From IMG/VR virus record IMGVR_UViG_3300010354_000149, positions 1 through 46,261 of that record: 46,261 nt of DNA; one strand, written 5' to 3'. The stretch comes from a virus. Positions 13,136-46,179 of this stretch are shown here, one piece after another (within the stretch, counting starts at the first letter, position 1; every line of letters begins with the position of its first letter). The notes under the pieces are model-generated. The model worked only from the letters and a program-made list of their open reading frames with translations. It ran no database searches and was not told the origin of the DNA. Both the position numbers and the translations under genes were made by a program.

Positions 13136-13714
13136 TTATAATGGGAATTTTTGTGACAGTTGGGCTAAATTATCTAAAATTGGAAGAGTTGGTGGTTTAA
13201 TCGCACTGGTTGAAGTCATCTTCTGGATACTCCCGCCAAAAATCTTCATAATATTTATCGCACTTTGAGTCATTTCTCCATCAGAAAACATCGCAATTGT
13301 TTCACTTGCGTTTGCTGTGAATTTTTTTGTTTCAATATTTACACTTTCATTAGAAATAATATTAACAACTCCCGTTGTTGAATCTGGACCTCGGGCAATA
13401 ATATCAATATTTTCTGCTTCTAGTCTTAGTCTTCCCTTAGTTTGGATTAAAATGTCACTTCGATCTGCATTTAACCACATTCCAATCTGATCTTTTTCAA
13501 TATCGTCACCGCATTTGACTTGATACCGACCTCTACATCTTGAAGTTATCCATCGTTTTCTTGGTTCTGTTTGGTCAATTGAAATATACTCCAGAGACTC
13601 TTGCCCCTGAATCATTATAGAAGACTTAACTTGGTCATTGTGAATGTGACCGTATGATAATTGACCATCCGGTGTTCCTAGTCTTTTAGTGTTTCGATTT
13701 TCTGATAAACTCAT
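13136..13714 (-). CDS. Baseplate spike/beta-helix protein, gp5 C-terminus-like
   Basis: 192 residues. The centre has short repeating beta strands (ADRSDILIQTKGRLRLEAEN, VVNIISNESVNIETKKFTAN) like the triple-stranded beta-helix that forms the T4 gp5 needle. It overlaps the upstream hub gene by four bases and lies five genes after the gp27-like gene. I infer it builds all or part of the membrane-puncturing spike, with the OB-fold part encoded separately at 15.9-16.6 kb. Confidence 0.55.
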   Translation of the reverse strand: MSLSENRNTKRLGTPDGQLSYGHIHNDQVKSSIMIQGQESLEYISIDQTEPRKRWITSRCRGRYQVKCGDDIEKDQIGMWLNADRSDILIQTKGRLRLEAENIDIIARGPDSTTGVVNIISNESVNIETKKFTANASETIAMFSDGEMTQSAINIMKIFGGSIQKMTSTSAIKPPTLPILDNLAQLSQKFPL

Positions 13715-14865
13715 TGTGGTACTCTAAAGAAAGGCCTGGGGGTTGTTATTTTTCCTACGCAATCAACAACGGAAATAAGTTGAGTTCCTGAAGGAATGAC
13801 TGCTAGGTTTGGGATATCAGCAATCGGTATAATTTTAAGAACAGGAATTAATTTAGCGTTGTATCCCCTAGGAGAATTTATAATAATTTTTGGGAGGTCT
13901 ATAAATCCAATACCGGGATTAACTACGTTAATTTTTGCTATTTCTCCTCTTTGATTAATCACTGGTTCCAAAATTGCACCATTATTGGGAACAACTTCCA
14001 GTGTATCTCCTGGTTCATATCCAAACCCAGGATCAAGAATATATATCTCATCAATTTGAGTTACTACTGGGTAAGTAACTGGTTTTGGGGGAGGTTTTGG
14101 TGGGAAAAGGATGTCTCCTGGTTGTAAATTTATGGTATTGCCCTCGGGATCAGGAACAATATAATATCTTCCATCTGCTTTTTTTACATAATATTCATTT
14201 GGATATTTCCAAATTCTTCCATTACCACCTAAAGATCCATCTGGCGCTGACAAATATCCATTGCCGGGAGACAAAACAACAATATTTTTAATTCTTAATT
14301 TAGTTTTCTTTGGTTCTCTTGAGGATCTTTCTGTTGATGTTTGCTGATATGGATCCATTTGAACTAATAATTTACTTCCAGAACCAACTCCACCCTCGTC
14401 TACAAGACTTGCTGTTGGTGCTGTGTCATAATTAAAACCGGAATTTATTATATCAAAACCTATCACTGAACTTGAAACAGGACTAATGACAGCATTTGCC
14501 ATTGCACCCAATCCACTTCCCCCGAATATTTGAACTCTTGGGGGACCAAGAGGTTGAGGATCTGTGGGGCAATTAGGGGCGCCACTTCCGCCAGAAGGAG
14601 CACTTGGAAGAGTATCAACAATTGTTAATTTATTTACATCCGAAATTAACAATTCTCTTAGATATCCATTTCCATCCTGAAAATAAAATATCTGATCCGA
14701 TTTAATATTAGCAATAGAATTTGCTTCTTTGCGAGTAATATCGTTAACTTTTACTCCATCCAGATCATAAAAAGAAAGACGAATTGGATCATTTGAATTT
14801 CCCCTAAATTCCTTTCTTTTTTTATTTTGCCTATCTACACCAAGATCTCTAAGTTGTTCTTCCAT
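13711..14865 (-). CDS. Baseplate-hub-associated protein with glycine-loop repeats
   Basis: 384 residues from the ATG at 14865 (a GTG at 14874 is an alternative). At least four repeats share the pattern [S/P]-G-x-G/N-Y/F: NSGFNYDTAP, SPGNGYLSAPDG, DPGFGYEPGDTLEV, NPGIGFIDLPKI. The same motif recurs in the 1978-residue structural protein. The ATG is two bases from the upstream stop, and the end overlaps the spike-like gene. Probably a beta-sandwich virion component near the hub; function unknown. Confidence 0.6.
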   Translation of the reverse strand: MEEQLRDLGVDRQNKKRKEFRGNSNDPIRLSFYDLDGVKVNDITRKEANSIANIKSDQIFYFQDGNGYLRELLISDVNKLTIVDTLPSAPSGGSGAPNCPTDPQPLGPPRVQIFGGSGLGAMANAVISPVSSSVIGFDIINSGFNYDTAPTASLVDEGGVGSGSKLLVQMDPYQQTSTERSSREPKKTKLRIKNIVVLSPGNGYLSAPDGSLGGNGRIWKYPNEYYVKKADGRYYIVPDPEGNTINLQPGDILFPPKPPPKPVTYPVVTQIDEIYILDPGFGYEPGDTLEVVPNNGAILEPVINQRGEIAKINVVNPGIGFIDLPKIIINSPRGYNAKLIPVLKIIPIADIPNLAVIPSGTQLISVVDCVGKITTPRPFFRVPQ

Positions 14866-14867
14866 AG

Positions 14868-15899
14868 TTACCACAATGTTAAATCATTTTTGCCAGGTGG
14901 AATATTTGCTTTAGAATCAGCAAGAGCCTGATCAATTCCAGTATTATCTGCAGATGCTACTCTAGAATCCTGAGACGCTGATGATTCTCCCTGACTAACA
15001 CCGGAAGTGTATTGTCCAGATTGAGCAGTACCTTCATCTGATGGAGATGCATATTCAGTTGCTGAGTTAGGAGCCGCTGGATCTCCTCCTTGCGGGTTAT
15101 TTTGTCCTGCTCCAGAAAGTGTAATCTCCTGAACTGATGGGCAAGCTTTGTCATCATCACATTTAAAAAAATTAAGAACTCCCGTAGCAAAATCTAAAGC
15201 ACTAAAAATACTACTGGCAATTCCTTGAACACTAGAAAAAACTCCTCCAAGAATTCCTGCAGCAAAATTTACTGCTGCAGTAATAGGACCTAAAATATTA
15301 TCCAACAAATTACTCACAAAATTTTCCACTAGGCACATTGGACCATTAACAAATTTATCCAACATTTGAAGTAGCAATTCTCCAACTATTCCAACAAGAC
15401 CTCTTATGATTTTCGCAAAAGCACAAGAAACCGCATTTAATCCTTTATTAAGATTATCAATAAAAGATGGCATTTCTCCTGGAAATAAAAATGGCAATCT
15501 TTTCTTTGCTTCATTTTGAATAGAATTTAAAGTCCAACCACGAACACGACTCATTATGTTTTTGACATAACCAGAAATGTCAATTGCAGAAAAGTTTATG
15601 ACTTTTTTAATAGATTTCCAAGGTTCTTCATTTTCATTTGTCAGAGCATCAAAAGCAGAATTGACACTTGAAAATCTTTTAATTCTTTCAATATCATTTT
15701 GAAGATTTTTAATCGTTCTTTGTATGCCCTTCATATCACTATTATCAGTTTTACAGGGGCTTTGAATATGAATAACTTTTTCAAGATCCAATTTTTGATC
15801 CCAAGCTGCTCTAGTGATTTCTTGGAAATCAACTGCTCTTGCTACAGGAATTGATGAGTGATTGACTCCTATTGATGGTGGTGCTCCAGGTGATGTCAT
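14868..15899 (-). CDS. Baseplate-hub cluster protein with hydrophobic centre
   Basis: 343 residues. The centre (about 130-240) is a run of amphipathic and hydrophobic helices (AFAKIIRGLVGIVGELLLQM, ITAAVNFAAGILGGVFSS) that could insert in membrane or pack in the tail lumen. A CDDDKAC segment and a Ser/Gly/Gln-rich low-complexity tail follow. The gene lies between the OB-fold hub gene and the glycine-loop-repeat gene. It may be a tail-ejected or membrane-interacting hub component; I do not recognise a named family. Confidence 0.55.
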   Translation of the reverse strand: MTSPGAPPSIGVNHSSIPVARAVDFQEITRAAWDQKLDLEKVIHIQSPCKTDNSDMKGIQRTIKNLQNDIERIKRFSSVNSAFDALTNENEEPWKSIKKVINFSAIDISGYVKNIMSRVRGWTLNSIQNEAKKRLPFLFPGEMPSFIDNLNKGLNAVSCAFAKIIRGLVGIVGELLLQMLDKFVNGPMCLVENFVSNLLDNILGPITAAVNFAAGILGGVFSSVQGIASSIFSALDFATGVLNFFKCDDDKACPSVQEITLSGAGQNNPQGGDPAAPNSATEYASPSDEGTAQSGQYTSGVSQGESSASQDSRVASADNTGIDQALADSKANIPPGKNDLTLW

Positions 15900-15911
15900 A
15901 GTATTATCTCC

Positions 15912-16595
15912 TTATCCGGGTGGAAGTTCTCCAGTTAATCCTATATAGTTCTCTTGGGCAATCAATGCTTGAGTTTCTGCATCTGCTGCTATGCTACCAA
16001 GTTGAGAACCTGCTGCTTCTCTTTCTGCTGTTCTTTGTCTTAGTTGATCTATTGTTAATGGGGTTTGTTGTTGAGGAACAGTTGTTGGAGCAGCATTAGA
16101 TGGTCGTTCAATTGGTTTGATTGTTTGTAAATAATCTGGAACAAAACATGATTGATATGTGTCATTAAATAATTGATGTGCTCCTATTGGCCCTTTGGGT
16201 TGTTGTTTAGGAACGTCATTATTTGTATTAGGTAAGATTCCAATAATATAAGGTTCTTGTCCTGCCATTCCATCACGATAAAATCCCCAAACAAGAGTTC
16301 CTGCCGAAAGTGTTGGGGTATCTGTAAATCCACCAAGACCACTTCCAGCAGTGGTTGGCAAAGATACAAATGCCATTGGTAATTGATCATCTGGAAGTTC
16401 TTCAGAATCTCCGCTGTGATAATTAAAAATTCTAATACGAACGCGACAAGGTCCTCCCCATCCTTTCTGATCTTTAGGATCAAGATGAGAAGCCTCAATA
16501 TTACCATGCCAAGAATCGCTACTTGCAACTCTACCAAACCATATTGGTAAAGATGTCGCTAAATTGGAATCATAATTTCCAGAATATTCATTCAT
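15912..16595 (-). CDS. Baseplate hub OB-fold protein, gp5 N-terminus-like
   Basis: 227 residues. The first 120 fit the gp5/VgrG OB-fold: WFGRVASSDSWHG, CRVRIRIFNYHSGDSEELPD, LPMAFVSLPTT, GTLVWGFYRDGMAGQEPYII, GILPNTN. No lysozyme domain follows, unlike T4 gp5, which has OB-fold, lysozyme and needle in one chain. The C-terminal part is Gln/Ala-rich. It overlaps the upstream gene by one base. Probably the hub ring that sits on the gp27-like trimer. Confidence 0.72.
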   Translation of the reverse strand: MNEYSGNYDSNLATSLPIWFGRVASSDSWHGNIEASHLDPKDQKGWGGPCRVRIRIFNYHSGDSEELPDDQLPMAFVSLPTTAGSGLGGFTDTPTLSAGTLVWGFYRDGMAGQEPYIIGILPNTNNDVPKQQPKGPIGAHQLFNDTYQSCFVPDYLQTIKPIERPSNAAPTTVPQQQTPLTIDQLRQRTAEREAAGSQLGSIAADAETQALIAQENYIGLTGELPPG

Positions 16596-18135: not shown

Positions 18136-21100
18136 TTATCCTCGCATTAAACCTGTATTGGTATTATTATTTACCCCACCAGAGACTCTAAATGAGGTTA
18201 GTTTATTTCCTCCCATTGGAATTGGAACAGGAACCATCTTTTCTTGAATTATTGGTTGAACTGCCATCTTTCTTCCACCCTCTACCGAATAAGATGGATA
18301 CTTGGTAAGTGATGATGCTTTATCTTTTGGTGGTTGTTTTTGAATATATGAATCACTTGAAGGTGTCAGCAATCCACCTTTATTAGCTTTTTTTACTCTT
18401 GCTGAAGTTAACGCTTTTTTAACTTCTTCTACGGTATGAGAACTTATATTTGCCGGAGGATAAGCAGATCTTCCAGTATCTGGATGTGGAACAGATGCCC
18501 ATTCTTCAGCTAAATCAACCATAGCACCACGTAGATCATCACTTTTTCCTTGTAAATAAGAAGAAAGTCGTGGTCTTTGACCGTTGTAAATTAGTGCCAA
18601 TCCCAATCTATCTTGAACGGAGGAACTAAATTTATCACTTCTTGATACTCCAGATCTACTCACAGCAAGTTTCATTGTTCCTGGTATTATTTGATATCTT
18701 CCAGCGGCAAAAAGTTTTCCTGACGCTTGTAAATCCATAATTTCACCAACTGTCATATCAGTTAAATTTTTTCCTAAAATAGTTGATGCATTATGAGTCG
18801 ATCCCACTATTCTTCCACCACTAGTTCCTTGATTCATTGAGTTATATCCACCTTCACCAGATGAAATAAAATCTAAAAGTGCCGAATTGGCGCTACTTTT
18901 ACCCATTGAAGAAGTTTGTTCTGCTTTATCTGGCGATATTCTTGCGGATTGTGTTTGATCTAATGGTGGTTGCTGTTGTGTTTTCTGTTTTTCGGCAAGT
19001 TCTTTTATTTTTTCTGGGTTACTTGGACCACCAGATAAATGTCCTAATAAATATTTTCTTCCAGATGAATCTGATACAATAAGAGAGTTTCCATAACCAG
19101 CATTATAACCTTCAGCATATTCAACAAATTTAAGACCACCTTTAAGAGTTATTGGTGCTCCACTTCTAATCGGATAATCAAATCCCCGATGACCTCTTCC
19201 CGCGCCAAGACCATCTCCCTTTGGATGTGATGATAGGGGTTTTCCATCAACAATTATATTATTCAAAACATAATCAGGCACAGTTCCTCCCGCACCAGAA
19301 TACCCATCTCCAGTTTCTATGTGAATATGAGGACCACTGCTACGACCAGTGCTTCCCACATATCCAACTACCATCCCACCAATATCAGTTCCGGATGCAG
19401 CAATATCTGCTGATGGTGAAGGTTGGCGTATTGCTGTAGAAGTATCATCTTTTAGTTCTTTCTCTTCTTTAGGAGTTTCTTTACCCAAAGAAAGTTCTCT
19501 TCTAACAGTTTCTATTACTTGCCCAACAGCAGATTCAATGTAAGGAATAATTAATTTTTTGGGATTAAATTCTGGAGTTGCTACTATTCCTCCGGTTCTT
19601 TCTACAACCCCACCAGAAGCCATCGCAGGAATTTCATTTTTTTTACTAAACATTTTTTCATAATATCCATAATTTTCACTATTAATATTTTCAAAAAGAC
19701 TCTCAAGACCTGTTGCTATACTGTTTAATGTTCCTTCACTTATCTTTTGCCCAAGAGCAGCATCAATCGCTCCTCCCATTAAGGCACCAATTCCATATGG
19801 AATTCTTTTGAAAGTATTAGCGACTGTTTCGAGAGTTCTAAATGGGTTAGTAATTGTAAGTCTCTCTCTTCCAAGAATCGCTGTAATCCAAGGATTTCCC
19901 TTTTCTGGCTTTACAGAATCTGGATATAATCTTTGAATTTCCTTTTCCCCACCAACATCTTTACCTGGTTGAGTTTGTTGAGGTAAAATATTGGAAGGAG
20001 TTTTCTTTTGTAATCTTAGAGTTCTTCCTTCTCTACCTATAACTTGTCCACCAGAAGCATACCTTCTAATATTGATAACCTTTCCGCCACTTTGTTGCCT
20101 TTGAACTGATTGTGGTGGTTTTTTATTTTGAAATAAAATTTCATACAATTTACCACCCAACTCTCCGCCGACAATCCCCCCAACTGCCGCCCCAATAGGT
20201 CCACCAATGGCTAATCCAACTGCACCAACTAATAAATTTCCAACTCCCCTAAACGCTGCTTTGCTAACAGAATCTCCAAGTGCCCAAGAAATGCCAAATT
20301 CAATTAATGATCCGACAATAGGTAATTTTGATAAAGGTGCTTTGATGATTCGAAATAAATTTTTACCAGCCTGTTTTTTTGCTGCGCCTGATAAGACTTC
20401 TCCGCCAGAAGTTGTAATAGTTGGTCTTTGTCTTAAAGGACTTCTAACATCTAATCCTTGGGCAGGTCTTCCTCCAGAAGTTGTAACTCTTGGTCTTCCA
20501 CCAGATCCGGAAGAGGGTCTAGATGTAGGTGTAGGTGGTTTATAATTTCTTACGTTTGTAGCAAAAGCTTCAATGGCACCAGTAAGTGCCATTCCCCCAA
20601 TAAGAACATAGTTAATGTATTTGTTTAGATTTGATGATACTTGGTCAAATGTTTTTTGAGCTCCTTCTCCTCCAATAATTTTAACGGTTTCTCTAACCTT
20701 ATCATAAAGCCCATAAGCTTTGTCAATAAAACCAACTATAGATTCTAAAATAAATTTAAATATTGTTTCTGCTACATTATAAACTTTTCCTATTGCTACA
20801 AAAATTTTTTTTAGTCTTGGAAGTTGATTTTGGAAAGTATTGAATAAAAATCCAAGAGAAGTAAAAAATAAGAATTTTTTAATTCTATCAAGAAAACTTG
20901 TTCCTGGGATAGAAATTGTAGGTAAATTAAATTTTTTTCTTTCTTGAGGTGCTTCTAATTTAGTTTCTACTTCATCTCTTTGCTTTCTTTCTTTTTTTAA
21001 TCTTTCACTTCTTTCGGATTGTTGGTCATTTGTTAAAAGAGATTTTATTAAAGCATCAATATCAAGTAAAGATTTTCTAACAAGATTAACATTTTGCTCA

Positions 21101-21234
21101 TTGTATTGTTTTGACATTGATACAAGTTTATTTCCATCATACTCTTTATTTGTGAGAGATGGAGTAACGTTTGCCTTTACAATTGCTGATGTTGTTTTTG
21201 CTTGAGGAAGGAACTTTTGAACATTAATTGCCAT
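18136..21234 (-). CDS. Large hub/tape-measure-like protein with permuted M23 and lysozyme-like domains
   Basis: 1032 residues. Residues 1-100 are coiled and charged; 111-135 (DRIKKFLFFTSLGFLFNTF) match a module in the adjacent 773-residue protein; 300-365 are hydrophobic Gly/Ala-rich (LLVGAVGLAIGGPIGAAVGG). At 625-740 an M23-like peptidase appears with its motifs in rotated order: GSTGRSSGPHIHIE (His636, His638), then HRGFD (His682, Asp686), then YGN...GHL (His732). At 783-945 a lysozyme-like domain follows (FISSGEGGYNS, Glu794; AAGRYQIIPGTMK). This is a tail protein likely to open peptidoglycan during DNA entry. Whether it is also the tape measure is inference from size, hydrophobic stretches and position. 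Confidence 0.72.
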   Translation of the reverse strand: MAINVQKFLPQAKTTSAIVKANVTPSLTNKEYDGNKLVSMSKQYNEQNVNLVRKSLLDIDALIKSLLTNDQQSERSERLKKERKQRDEVETKLEAPQERKKFNLPTISIPGTSFLDRIKKFLFFTSLGFLFNTFQNQLPRLKKIFVAIGKVYNVAETIFKFILESIVGFIDKAYGLYDKVRETVKIIGGEGAQKTFDQVSSNLNKYINYVLIGGMALTGAIEAFATNVRNYKPPTPTSRPSSGSGGRPRVTTSGGRPAQGLDVRSPLRQRPTITTSGGEVLSGAAKKQAGKNLFRIIKAPLSKLPIVGSLIEFGISWALGDSVSKAAFRGVGNLLVGAVGLAIGGPIGAAVGGIVGGELGGKLYEILFQNKKPPQSVQRQQSGGKVINIRRYASGGQVIGREGRTLRLQKKTPSNILPQQTQPGKDVGGEKEIQRLYPDSVKPEKGNPWITAILGRERLTITNPFRTLETVANTFKRIPYGIGALMGGAIDAALGQKISEGTLNSIATGLESLFENINSENYGYYEKMFSKKNEIPAMASGGVVERTGGIVATPEFNPKKLIIPYIESAVGQVIETVRRELSLGKETPKEEKELKDDTSTAIRQPSPSADIAASGTDIGGMVVGYVGSTGRSSGPHIHIETGDGYSGAGGTVPDYVLNNIIVDGKPLSSHPKGDGLGAGRGHRGFDYPIRSGAPITLKGGLKFVEYAEGYNAGYGNSLIVSDSSGRKYLLGHLSGGPSNPEKIKELAEKQKTQQQPPLDQTQSARISPDKAEQTSSMGKSSANSALLDFISSGEGGYNSMNQGTSGGRIVGSTHNASTILGKNLTDMTVGEIMDLQASGKLFAAGRYQIIPGTMKLAVSRSGVSRSDKFSSSVQDRLGLALIYNGQRPRLSSYLQGKSDDLRGAMVDLAEEWASVPHPDTGRSAYPPANISSHTVEEVKKALTSARVKKANKGGLLTPSSDSYIQKQPPKDKASSLTKYPSYSVEGGRKMAVQPIIQEKMVPVPIPMGGNKLTSFRVSGGVNNNTNTGLMRG

Positions 21235-21236
21235 CT

Positions 21237-23558
21237 TTATCCAATCCCATATAGACTTGCATTATTGGCACTTGAGTGTCTGGCAAAAAAAACAGGAACT
21301 TGAGGACCGCCAGTTCCACCTCCAATTGACCCACCAGATGAAGTAGATTGAGTAATCGGGGAAAGCATTTCTATACTATTTGACATTGTTGATGGATGTG
21401 GAGGTATATTGGGAGGAGTTTTAATTTTTTTTGCAAATGCTGCATTAGAGTCACCATCAAATCCAGCTTGTAAAGATTCAGCAACAGAAAGAAGAACATT
21501 TCCCAAACCTTTATTTGCCGAATCCTTTGTTAAGACATAATTAAATATTTTTTCTCCTGGTTGAAGTGCAGTATTTGTTGTTGGGTCATATTGAGTATCA
21601 ACTCCCATTCCTTTAATTGAAATTCCAAAATCATTTGTAATGGGAATAAGAGATCCCCCACCCTGTTTCTTTTCTGGTTTTGTTTTTTTTCCAGAAAATA
21701 ATCCTAGTGGATCCCACCACGCCTTCTCCTGTTCTTTTTCTTTTGATTTTGGTTTTGGTTTGGTGGTTGTTTTTATTGGACTTGGTAAATTTGGTTCAAC
21801 ACCATATTCTCTCAATCTTTGGACAATTTTTGTTGGATATTCTGCGTGAGGATTGTATCCAGCAGCAGCAATATTTTTAATAGCCTCTTCTGGGGTTTTG
21901 GCAGATCCATAAAATTTTCTCCACTTTTGAACTCTATATCTAACAGATTCTTCAATTGATTTAAACACCATTGCATTGTGAGTTCTTTTTTCAATTGGAT
22001 CAAAATATTCATATCCTTTCGTTCCCGAAGGAGCATCTTGTCCAAATAAATTATTTGCCGCTTTAGCAACTTCAGATTTTCCAAATCCACTTTCCTCTAC
22101 AGCCTGAGCTGCAGTTACTTCTGGGAAAGGATCGCCAAATGCTTTAGCAAGTCTATAAATTTTAGAGAAAAACTGCCCATATGAATCTTTTGGAGATGCA
22201 TAATTTGGATATCCTTGAATTGGACTTCTAAATTTTAATGTTGATCCATAAGGTTGTTTACCAACCTGCCCTCCACTGTTAAATAACTCTATTGAAGTAT
22301 TATTAAATATTGAATTCTTAAGTAAAGGAGATAATGTAATCAAACCTCCACTATTAAATAATTTACTTATTTTGGGTTTATTTGCTCCAGGTCCTCCATA
22401 TTGCCGATTTAAATAAAGAAAAGGTTCTGCCCCCACAGCATCTACAGTTTCTTTATTAATTACAATTTCTCCAGGGCGGGCAGCAATTAACTGAGTATCA
22501 ACCCCAAATCCAGAAATTCTTTGACCTGTGTTATTAAAAATTCCACCATATCCAGTCATTCCTCCACTTGCCATAGGAACAATGTATGGCATTAATGGCA
22601 AAATTGACCCTCCTTTAGCTGCCCCCTGAATGGGCATAGAAGTTTGTTCCTCAGGCGATGGTTCTTTGTTGTTTATTTGACTAATTGCATATGCTGTTCC
22701 AGCTACAGCAGCAGCACCTGCAGCAAGCCAAGGATTTCTTAAAAATGCTAAACTTAAACTTTTTGTTGCGTTGAATATTCTTGGAATTTGAGAGAGTAAC
22801 TTTCCAGTCAATCCCCCAATCATTCTTAAAGTGCCTCTTACAAAAGCACCAAAAGGAGTTAAAAATAAGATAGCAGCACCAACAAAAGTTGGCCACCAGT
22901 CTTTAAAGAATCTTGTTAAAGTTTGAACCTTTGATTTGTTTTGGGGATCACTTAACCAACTCACCAAATCATTAAATGCTTTACCCAACAAGGTAAAGAA
23001 AATGAACTTCATTATATTATCAATAATATTTTGAAAAGGATCTATAAACTTTTTAATAGCGTTTTGTACTGTTCCAAATCCTTTTTTTACACTTTCTAAC
23101 CCCTCTTCACGCTTTCTTCTATTTTCATTTTCATAATCTTTTCTATTTTGTTCCTCTGTTTTTTTTCTTAAAGAAAGTAAAGATGCTAAAGTGGTTTGAA
23201 TTGATTGAAGCGGTTGTTGCAGAGGAGTCAAATCGACAGGGTTTACTGTCGGCTGTTGTATTTGTGAAGGAACTATAGGAGATGATATTGGTTGAACAAC
23301 GGGATTTAAGAATTTAGTTGTCGCTAAACTACTTGCAGTAATTGGTTTTGATCTTGGTTTGAATCTACCCTTTTTACCTCTAACTCTTTTTCTTTCGTTT
23401 GAAAGGAGTGCTAGTTCTTCTTGTGGTAAACTATTTGCTTTTGAAACTATTACCTCTCTAAGTAGAGTTTCATAAGTTCCATAATCTAAATCAAAAACTT
23501 GCTGAAGACCCAGTAGCCTTAAAATTCTTTCATCAATTTGTTCGGATACTGAGTTCAT
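21237..23558 (-). CDS. Hub/tape-measure-like protein with glucosaminidase domain
   Basis: 773 residues. An N-terminal helical part and a basic linker lead to KFIFFTLLGKAFNDLVSWL (184-202), similar to the neighbour's module, then two hydrophobic stretches (224-243, 277-293). Residues 465-590 form a FlgJ-like (GH73) glucosaminidase: AAQAVEESGFGKSEVAKAAN with Glu489 as likely acid, NNLFGQDAP, YRVQKWRKFYG. Two repeats (FGVDTQLIAARPGEIVINKE and MGVDTQYDPTTNTALQPGEK) flank this domain. It probably cleaves glycan strands at infection. It abuts the 1032-residue gene by two bases. Confidence 0.72.
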   Translation of the reverse strand: MNSVSEQIDERILRLLGLQQVFDLDYGTYETLLREVIVSKANSLPQEELALLSNERKRVRGKKGRFKPRSKPITASSLATTKFLNPVVQPISSPIVPSQIQQPTVNPVDLTPLQQPLQSIQTTLASLLSLRKKTEEQNRKDYENENRRKREEGLESVKKGFGTVQNAIKKFIDPFQNIIDNIMKFIFFTLLGKAFNDLVSWLSDPQNKSKVQTLTRFFKDWWPTFVGAAILFLTPFGAFVRGTLRMIGGLTGKLLSQIPRIFNATKSLSLAFLRNPWLAAGAAAVAGTAYAISQINNKEPSPEEQTSMPIQGAAKGGSILPLMPYIVPMASGGMTGYGGIFNNTGQRISGFGVDTQLIAARPGEIVINKETVDAVGAEPFLYLNRQYGGPGANKPKISKLFNSGGLITLSPLLKNSIFNNTSIELFNSGGQVGKQPYGSTLKFRSPIQGYPNYASPKDSYGQFFSKIYRLAKAFGDPFPEVTAAQAVEESGFGKSEVAKAANNLFGQDAPSGTKGYEYFDPIEKRTHNAMVFKSIEESVRYRVQKWRKFYGSAKTPEEAIKNIAAAGYNPHAEYPTKIVQRLREYGVEPNLPSPIKTTTKPKPKSKEKEQEKAWWDPLGLFSGKKTKPEKKQGGGSLIPITNDFGISIKGMGVDTQYDPTTNTALQPGEKIFNYVLTKDSANKGLGNVLLSVAESLQAGFDGDSNAAFAKKIKTPPNIPPHPSTMSNSIEMLSPITQSTSSGGSIGGGTGGPQVPVFFARHSSANNASLYGIG

Positions 23559-23742: not shown

Positions 23743-24462
23743 CTACGCGAAAAAACTTGATAACCCTTCCAGAACAACTTCACTCTCAACTTTTGTTTCA
23801 GGATTTTTAACTTTAATTTTATGAGAAAGTTTAGGCATTGTTTCGAAAAACCTTTCAATTTCTTTGAATTGAGAAGTATTCATTTGTTCTAAAAATTCTA
23901 TTAATTCTTTTTTAGTTACGTCTGCTGCAACCCAAACTTCTTCCTCAGTAAAAATTTTATCAATACATGAAGAAATTAATTCAAATGATTGATCAATTGT
24001 ACTGTCAGATGAGAATTCAAAATTACTTTTAATAAATTGTTCAAGTGATGGATATTTCATTTCCATCATAATATAATCATCAACTTTAATTTGTGTTGAA
24101 TGATTTTCATTTTTTTGAACTTTAATATCATCAACATTAAGTTTTATAGGAACTATAGTTTCTCCGTCATCAGGACAAATAATATTAACTTCTATTTCTT
24201 CACCAACAGACTTTCCACGAATATTAAGAAACAGGTACTCGATATCAAAAGTAGGAAGTAATTCTACTTTAATTCCCTTTGTTTCAATACAACTTTTGAT
24301 TACTGTTTTGATTGCTGTTGTGATTTGTTTTGTGTCTTCTGATTCCAATGCAAGAACCAAAAGTTTTTCTTCCCTCACAAGAAAAGGTCTATACTTAATT
24401 GTTTGCCCATTTGAAGGCAATTCAAGATCATATGTTGGGGTGCTAATCTTTGGTAAAGGCAT
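23743..24462 (-). CDS. gp26: Baseplate hub assembly protein, gp26-like
   Basis: 239 residues. MPLPKISTPTYDLELPSNGQ, then IKYRPFLVREEKLLVLALES and a central IDIEYLF-type strand (FDIEYLFLNIRGKSVGEEI) followed by CPDDGETIVPIKLNVDD match the T4 baseplate hub family (gp26 type). The family takes part in hub assembly. A late motif lies 25 bases upstream of the start, and the gene begins the hub unit that runs to about 11.3 kb. Confidence 0.72.
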   Translation of the reverse strand: MPLPKISTPTYDLELPSNGQTIKYRPFLVREEKLLVLALESEDTKQITTAIKTVIKSCIETKGIKVELLPTFDIEYLFLNIRGKSVGEEIEVNIICPDDGETIVPIKLNVDDIKVQKNENHSTQIKVDDYIMMEMKYPSLEQFIKSNFEFSSDSTIDQSFELISSCIDKIFTEEEVWVAADVTKKELIEFLEQMNTSQFKEIERFFETMPKLSHKIKVKNPETKVESEVVLEGLSSFFA

Positions 24463-43388: not shown

Positions 43389-44681
<1,293 letters not shown>

Positions 44682-44700: not shown

Positions 44701-46179
44701 TCAGAAAGTAAACTTTGTCTGAACAACACCACCCCAGCTATCAGAATCTTGATAACCTTGATTGTTATCAACATAGAAGAGAGCAGGAGTAATGCTGATG
44801 TTGTCAGTTACTTGGAACTTGTAGAAGAACTCAAGCATTGTAGCATCACTTACGCCACGGGTTTCGGCAGAAGGTGCTTGACCAATGGCAACACCAGCAG
44901 CGTTACCAGCGATGAACGCATCATTCCACTGAAGACCAACGAACCAGGAATCTGAATCGGTAGCATCAGTGACACCAGTAGAACCACTCACGAAGTTATA
45001 ACCATAACCAGCAGAGATGGAAGGAACCCAACGACTCTCAGAAGGTTGCCAGTAAGCATTCACAGCAATGCTGTTTGATTCTTGACCATCTACGAGAGCA
45101 CCATTGGCACCCAGGAGACCATTGTAGGTGCGAGGACGAGTGCCCTCAGAACCATAACGATAACCAACACCAATACCCCAGTTGGTATCACGATAACCTG
45201 CCTGTGCCATAAAGTTTAGAGCACCATCAGAGTCAAACACACCAGAACTAGAATCATCGCCATTTTGAGCAACATAATTTAAACCAGCAACAAAACCCTT
45301 CCTACCACCATACTGAAGACCCACACCAGCACCAACTGCCTTGTTATAGACACCAGGAGCACCAGCAGTAGTAAAGAAGTCAAGAATTTCCGACTTATAG
45401 GCAGAAGGAATCCATGCCATTTCAGTATTACGAACCAGAGGACCAGCAGTGACAGTCAGTTCGGAACCAGCAAGAGTGACAGGGAACTGATAGTAAAGAC
45501 GATCAATCTCTACACTATTGTCAGTGGTTTCTGCTTTGTCAAGTTTAAATAGAGAAGAACTAGAACCGAAAGGTTGATCACTGAAGTTACCAGCACGAAG
45601 ACGAGTGCGAAGCAGATCCCTACCAGTGAACGAAGTATCAAAGTTCAGACGGAGATCATAGTTGAATGCGGTGTTGCCAACGTTTCCACCATCATTCGTA
45701 TCAAGACCAGGAACTCCACCAAGAACGAAGGATGCTTCACCCTTGAGTTTGGTAGTAGTAGAGAATTGCTGAGATTCCAGAACACCAACTTTAGATTCTA
45801 GACCATCAACACGACCACGAAGAACAATCAGTTCTGCTTTGAATTCTTCTTGAAGTTTACGAAGTTCATCAGTAACTTCAGTTACGCGATCCAGGCAAGC
45901 ATTCAGCAGTGCTGCTGCCTCGTAACGGGTCATAGCACGACCACCACGATAAGTGCCATCAGGATATCCTGCGACACAACCATAACGCTCAATCAAATTG
46001 GAAAGAGCTTGATATGCCCAATCAGTAGGTTGAACATCAGAGAATTGAGAGATACTTGTAACTTGTTCAGAAGAAGCATACTGATTCACATCAGTAAGAT
46101 TCAATTCTGCAGCAGTTGCAGCGGGAGCAACAAGACCCAGAGCAACTGGAGCAAGCATCAGTTGTTTAAGAAAATTCAT
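44701..46179 (-). CDS. Cyanobacterial-type outer-membrane porin (SLH + OprB)
   Basis: 492 residues. Signal peptide (MNFLKQLMLAPVALGLVAPA, cut near AATAAE), an SLH domain at about 45-105 (FSDVQPTDWAYQALSNLIER, CVAGYPDGTYRGGRAMTRYE), a coiled coil (VTDELRKLQEEFKAELIVLR) and an OprB-type beta barrel to the end (VVQTKFTF, terminal Phe). This is the SomA/SomB layout of marine Synechococcus porins. The gene is complete and more GC-rich than most of the window. A phage copy could alter outer-membrane permeability or the receptor surface of infected cells; that is inference. Confidence 0.88.
   Translation of the reverse strand: MNFLKQLMLAPVALGLVAPAATAAELNLTDVNQYASSEQVTSISQFSDVQPTDWAYQALSNLIERYGCVAGYPDGTYRGGRAMTRYEAAALLNACLDRVTEVTDELRKLQEEFKAELIVLRGRVDGLESKVGVLESQQFSTTTKLKGEASFVLGGVPGLDTNDGGNVGNTAFNYDLRLNFDTSFTGRDLLRTRLRAGNFSDQPFGSSSSLFKLDKAETTDNSVEIDRLYYQFPVTLAGSELTVTAGPLVRNTEMAWIPSAYKSEILDFFTTAGAPGVYNKAVGAGVGLQYGGRKGFVAGLNYVAQNGDDSSSGVFDSDGALNFMAQAGYRDTNWGIGVGYRYGSEGTRPRTYNGLLGANGALVDGQESNSIAVNAYWQPSESRWVPSISAGYGYNFVSGSTGVTDATDSDSWFVGLQWNDAFIAGNAAGVAIGQAPSAETRGVSDATMLEFFYKFQVTDNISITPALFYVDNNQGYQDSDSWGGVVQTKFTF

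Follow-up and report, generated by a model that had tools for sequence, protein, structure and literature searches.

Domain order in P0001

In canonical peptidases of the M23 family, the chain order of the ligand and catalytic motifs is HxxxD, YxHL and HxH. A virion-type protein, P0001, encoded on a viral contig raised the question of whether the same domain can occur in nature with its two halves exchanged. The window, that is, the whole stretch of DNA that was analysed, is a 46261-base virus record from IMG/VR. It looks like a fragment of a T4-like cyanophage, on the basis of its psbA, baseplate hub, tail-tube cap, gp5-like, gp32 and PhoH genes.

The motifs of P0001 were located by recomputation. 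The HxxxD motif, which supplies two zinc ligands in M23 (H682/D686), the HxH motif within GxTGxSxGPHxHxE (H636/H638), and the catalytic His of YxHL following YGN (H732, after Y714 G715 N716) were all present. On the other hand, the canonical chain order was absent, with HxH coming first, and the domain was therefore filed as a permuted variant and not as an ordinary member of M23. A sequence-only reading had placed GPHIHIE before HRGFD and YGN...GHL with every ligand motif retained; its residue numbers proved exact, and the order was kept in about 30 other viral contigs. The interval it had assigned, 19030-19386, pointed to the right domain, which is slightly longer (about 19018-19386). The five ligand and catalytic residues, including the HxxxD and HxH pairs, were invariant across 24 sequences (the window and 23 others of its clade, clade I). 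The domain is under purifying selection, dN/dS being about 0.1-0.4 for most pairs in this clade.

The linker of about 30 residues that joins the old C-terminus to the old N-terminus was present in the alignments of all permuted clades. At the new termini the canonical VxxGxxV hairpin was missing or replaced. The canonical positions absent between the halves (approximately 77-88) correspond to the hairpin after YxHL, which is the site of the new chain ends.

Table 1. Coordinates in the window of the P0001 domains, the M23 motifs and neighbouring genes
Feature	Position	Strand	Basis or remark
P0001, 1032 aa, virion hub/tape-measure-like, bearing the permuted M23 domain	18136..21234	-	ORF; phrog matches
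P0001 N-terminal region	20557..21234	-	Kept in the same slot of the T4-like cyanophages S-SM2, Bellamy, S-SCSM1 and SynMITS9220M01
Circularly permuted M23 domain, aa 617-739	19018..19386	-	Profile, rotation and half-order tests; AlphaFold model
Half A (canonical M23 C-terminal half), VVGYVGSTGRSSGPHIHIETG, aa 620-642, with H636 and H638	19309..19377	-	Pfam M23 profile 66-87/96
GPHIHIE, from aa 634 (H636, H638)	19315-19335	-	Motif positions recomputed
Linker, old C-terminus to old N-terminus, GDGYSGAGGTVPDYVLNNIIVDGKPLSSHP, short predicted helix	19222..19311	-	Alignments; DSSP helix 47-52 of the model
Half B (canonical M23 N-terminal half), aa 672-739	19018..19221	-	Canonical HMM positions 19-76; 3slu/6muk matched in swapped order
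HRGFD, from aa 682 (H682, D686)	19177-19191	-	Motif positions recomputed; in half B
YGN, aa 714 (Y714 G715 N716)	19087-19095	-	Motif positions recomputed; in half B
GHL, from aa 731 (H732)	19036-19044	-	Motif positions recomputed; in half B
Lambda-lysozyme-like (transglycosylase/muramidase) domain, aa 785-946, EGGYNSMNQG...GRYQIIPGT	18397..18882	-	phrog_1200, phrog_90 endolysin
Tail protein downstream of P0001	16812..18134	-	phrog_350; syntenic with SfCH8_13
Glucosaminidase domain	21804..22130	-	PF01832, 2.9e-14; in ORF 21237-23558 upstream of P0001
Baseplate hub	23743..24462	-	phrog_150; sets the P0001 slot in the baseplate hub operon; order kept in relatives

Rotation of the domain restores a continuous M23 match

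When the whole of P0001 was searched, the Pfam M23 profile scored only the HxH part, at 25.7 bits against a cut-off of 28.7, whereas the isolated domain (32.8) and the rotated domain (34.2) both exceeded the cut-off. In its native order, the isolated domain gave two Pfam M23 stretches in swapped positions; after it was cut in the linker and the pieces were exchanged, a single continuous stretch was obtained (profile 2-87/96). The same change from two stretches to one was seen with the relatives L011, L015 and L021. When the family profile was compared with the PDB, the solved M23 structures 3slu and 6muk came first (E 5e-14), again as two stretches in swapped order.

A rotation scan was performed with an HMM made from ten canonical M23s, the canonical controls being scored with leave-one-out models. 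A cut in the linker raised the score by approximately 10 to 30 bits in 30 of the 33 permuted sequences, all except L052, S-EIVl and S-CBP1. For every one of the ten controls, the best score lay at zero rotation or a few residues from it. In hhalign comparisons, clade I aligned with the canonical profile as separate pieces (68.8 and 61.8) and, after rotation, as a single alignment (120.9); the pieces of clades II and III likewise merged into one. Both halves were also recognized as M23 by an independent canonical HMM. The possibility that the segment consists of two half domains from different folds is unsupported, since both halves match the same M23 profiles.

Predicted structure

The structure prediction proposed at the outset as a check gave one confident, compact domain for the window sequence modelled by AlphaFold with 24 relatives (pLDDT 87, pTM 0.84), with the strands placed as in a rotated M23. 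The model of the relative L021 was of similar quality (pLDDT 85.8, pTM 0.81). Foldseek retrieved four phage proteins from BFVD with alignments spanning almost all of the domain (prob 1.0, E 3e-7 to 2e-5); S-TIM5 H6WFX6 (E 1.6e-6) and P60 L0CQF1 are two of them. The significant structural neighbours were only phage proteins with the same permuted order. Against the PDB, neither the window-domain model nor the L021 model had a match at E<1e-3. For L021 the best M23 was ShyA 6u2a, at rank 3 (E 0.81, TMq 0.36), and its probability of 0.47 was the highest among the PDB matches listed for that model. A sequential aligner may do poorly on a permuted fold; for these models, the PDB result is compatible with such a fold and is not proof of it. 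Rotation, the single A-B copy, the AlphaFold domain and the structural neighbours of the same order together support the circular permutation that the sequence-only reading had claimed.

Distribution and origin of the permuted order

The permuted order was found in about 30 cyanophage-like IMG/VR contigs of clade I. Among cultured phages, it was found in S-TIM5, S-TIM66, Moraxella Mcat20, the cyanopodoviruses S-CBP1 and P60, and Acinetobacter tape measures; S-EIVl is a weaker case. The earlier description of the arrangement as rare has to be revised: several phage lineages carry it. The occurrence of the same swapped order in unrelated phages indicates a real variant of the M23 family. An assembly artefact or an oddity of a single contig was ruled out, as the order is seen in independent contigs and also in cultured phages.

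A tblastn search of cultured phages with the window domain found nothing at 1e-5, and L021 and L015, relatives closer to the canonical form, did give matches when used as queries. In bacterial species genomes, no relative was retrieved with the clade I profile; the Acinetobacter/Moraxella profile retrieved Acinetobacter loci together with canonical M23s. No relative was found when IMG/VR was scanned with the S-TIM66 domain. Within the bacterial family to which one Acinetobacter genome belongs, a match over most of the model was seen in 16 of 299 genomes, always in ORFs of >1000 aa. The permuted form, if confirmed, also suggests that many Acinetobacter prophage tape measures hold an unannotated peptidase-like domain.

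HLD often replaces HLH in the Acinetobacter and Moraxella members, and intact HxH is present in the clade III members L164, L165 and L186-L188. Across the prophage tape measures of the Acinetobacter family (L157-L165 and L171-L188), HLH and HLD are mixed, and thus the third zinc ligand has changed within the clade. In P60, SFGVD stands in place of HxGxD and the His is lost. A further ORF of 4458 aa (L189) showed a weak, partial match without clear M23 ligands and may hold a permuted domain that has degenerated.

The tree built from rotated sequences placed the canonical M23s on one side with support of 75/86 and contained long branches; a single origin is therefore possible but not established. 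Profiles of clades I, II and III in their native order can be aligned to each other across the linker, which favours a common origin. On these sequence comparisons, descent of all permuted clades from one event is possible, being neither shown nor rejected. We consider the chances evenly balanced that one ancient permutation gave rise to a distinct phage-tail M23 lineage across myo-, sipho- and podovirus-like phages, in which it replaced the canonical M23 in the same slot and its new termini permitted the domain to be inserted within hub and tape-measure proteins.

P0001 and its gene neighbourhood

P0001 matched phrog_35997 at its N-terminus (1e-27), the tape measure phrog_167 in its middle (7e-8) and endolysin phrogs at its C-terminus. 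Its lysozyme-like domain shares 52% identity with an S-SZBM1 protein annotated as lambda lysozyme. In the relative L035 (4813-6600), the lambda-lysozyme-like region comes ahead of the permuted M23 domain, whereas in the window it follows it, which indicates that the domains of this slot have been shuffled.

The P0001 slot is flanked by baseplate hub genes on one side and by the tail protein and gp5-like genes on the other. The order baseplate hub, glucosaminidase-containing ORF, P0001, tail protein, 71-aa protein and gp5-like hub is kept in relatives. Proteins related to P0001 carry annotations as virion structural or tape-measure proteins. NCBIfam assigned no family to P0001. For two relatives the nearest NCBIfam families were the DD-endopeptidases MepM and ShyA/ShyC; these matches were weak and partial, so that the substrate they suggest is a lead only.

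The gp5-like baseplate hub/tail lysozyme gene (13711-16595, minus strand) consists in the window of three ORFs of 227, 343 and 387 aa, which match successive parts of one Sf-CH8 protein. It is also split in the relatives L025 and L031 and unsplit in L024 and L039. Elsewhere in the window, a phage-encoded OprB-type porin with an SLH domain (44701-46179, minus strand) shows 69% identity to the porin of Synechococcus phage S-SRM01, and a phage-encoded S-adenosyl-L-homocysteine hydrolase (Pfam PF05221/PF00670) occupies 43389-44642 (minus strand).

Proposed role of the permuted domain

The P0001 segment is very probably a natural circular permutation of an M23 (LytM/lysostaphin-type) zinc metallopeptidase that serves as a putative virion-associated peptidoglycan endopeptidase. 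Along the chain, the canonical C-terminal half (GxTGxSxGPHxHIE) is followed by the linker and then by the canonical N-terminal half (HxGxD...YGN...YxxGHL), with the new chain ends in the hairpin that normally comes after YxHL. Such a domain would most likely fold like an ordinary M23. H682, D686 and H638 would most likely hold one zinc, and H636 and H732 would be the catalytic histidines. The enzyme would then cut peptide cross-links of the host peptidoglycan when DNA is delivered through the tail, and two glycan-cutting domains, the lambda-type lysozyme domain of P0001 and the glucosaminidase domain of the upstream gene, may act alongside it.

M23 domains are known to occur in tandem, and permutations usually arise by duplication and subsequent truncation; the swapped order might accordingly be only the junction between the end of one canonical copy and the start of the next. 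However, in all 58 permuted ORFs in which both halves scored, the window included, one A half was followed by one B half. No third M23 half, in a BAB or an ABA pattern, occurred among the ORFs read in the fetched loci, and no M23 piece was found in P0001 upstream of aa 617 or downstream of aa 739. Since none of these ORFs holds more than a single A and a single B half, a tandem junction is extremely improbable. It is very unlikely, though less so, that the half domains complete each other between subunits by domain swapping and not within one chain. The hub proteins of tails form oligomers, and an exchange between copies would fit the order of the halves, but the single-chain model is confident and all clades have the linker.

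A permuted fold that is inactive and has a structural or scaffold role, as in the LytM pseudo-enzymes EnvC and NlpD, is somewhat easier to envisage but still unlikely. The relatives with altered ligands, HxD for HxH in Acinetobacter and Moraxella and SFGVD in P60, speak for it. Against it stand the invariance of the five residues throughout the clade I set, the intact HxH members of clade III, and the position of the permuted domain among other wall-cutting domains.

Few wall-cutting enzymes have been studied as much as the M23 peptidases, which are also antibacterial leads. If confirmed, a permuted M23 would be a natural experiment on the tolerance of the fold, and the permutation would explain why profile matches of these phage proteins fall below cut-offs or cover fragments only.

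Comparison with known systems

A search of the open literature found no description of a permuted M23, LytM or lysostaphin domain, the single co-occurrence of the terms relating to NlpC/P60; the circularly permuted M23 apparently represents a form, so far undescribed, of an enzyme family that is very common. Among wall-peptidase superfamilies, circular permutation has a precedent in the permuted NlpC/P60 peptidases (LRAT-like, YaeF; PMC6403190), which, unlike M23, are cysteine peptidases of an unrelated fold.

The P0001 domain shares with canonical M23 (PF01551; LytM, lysostaphin, MepM, ShyA and NMB0315 3slu) both halves, the five ligand and catalytic motifs and, inside each half, the strand order; after rotation it matches the family end to end. 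It differs in that the halves are exchanged, the old termini are joined by the linker, and the VxxGxxV hairpin is opened to form new termini.

The S-TIM5 virion structural protein (YP_007006114) and its S-TIM66 counterpart (UYE96869) have the permuted order with HxH and HxGxD, but they are only about 30% identical to P0001, belong to another phage lineage (Aurunvirus) and have other flanking domains. The tape measures of Acinetobacter (Vieuvirus) and Moraxella phages and prophages carry the permuted order in ORFs of 1000-1700 aa, and their native-order profile matches that of the window's clade with a score of 116.8 (hhalign). They differ from P0001 in that they often have HLD for HLH and are siphophage tape measures, in contrast to a T4-like hub.

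In the corresponding slot of S-SM2, Bellamy, S-SCSM1 and SynMITS9220M01, no M23 was found. Gene 12 of Sf-CH8, gene 14 of Sf-CH3 and gene 12 of S-RIM44, all from cyanomyoviruses, occupy the same slot of the baseplate hub operon as P0001, and in Sf-CH8 the genes downstream of it are homologous to those of the window. Unlike P0001, these three proteins carry a canonical M23 with the order HxGxD...YxHL...GPHLH. If the permutation is confirmed, the canonical form of Sf-CH8 and the permuted form of the window, present in one syntenic slot, would allow a test of what the permutation buys a tail protein.
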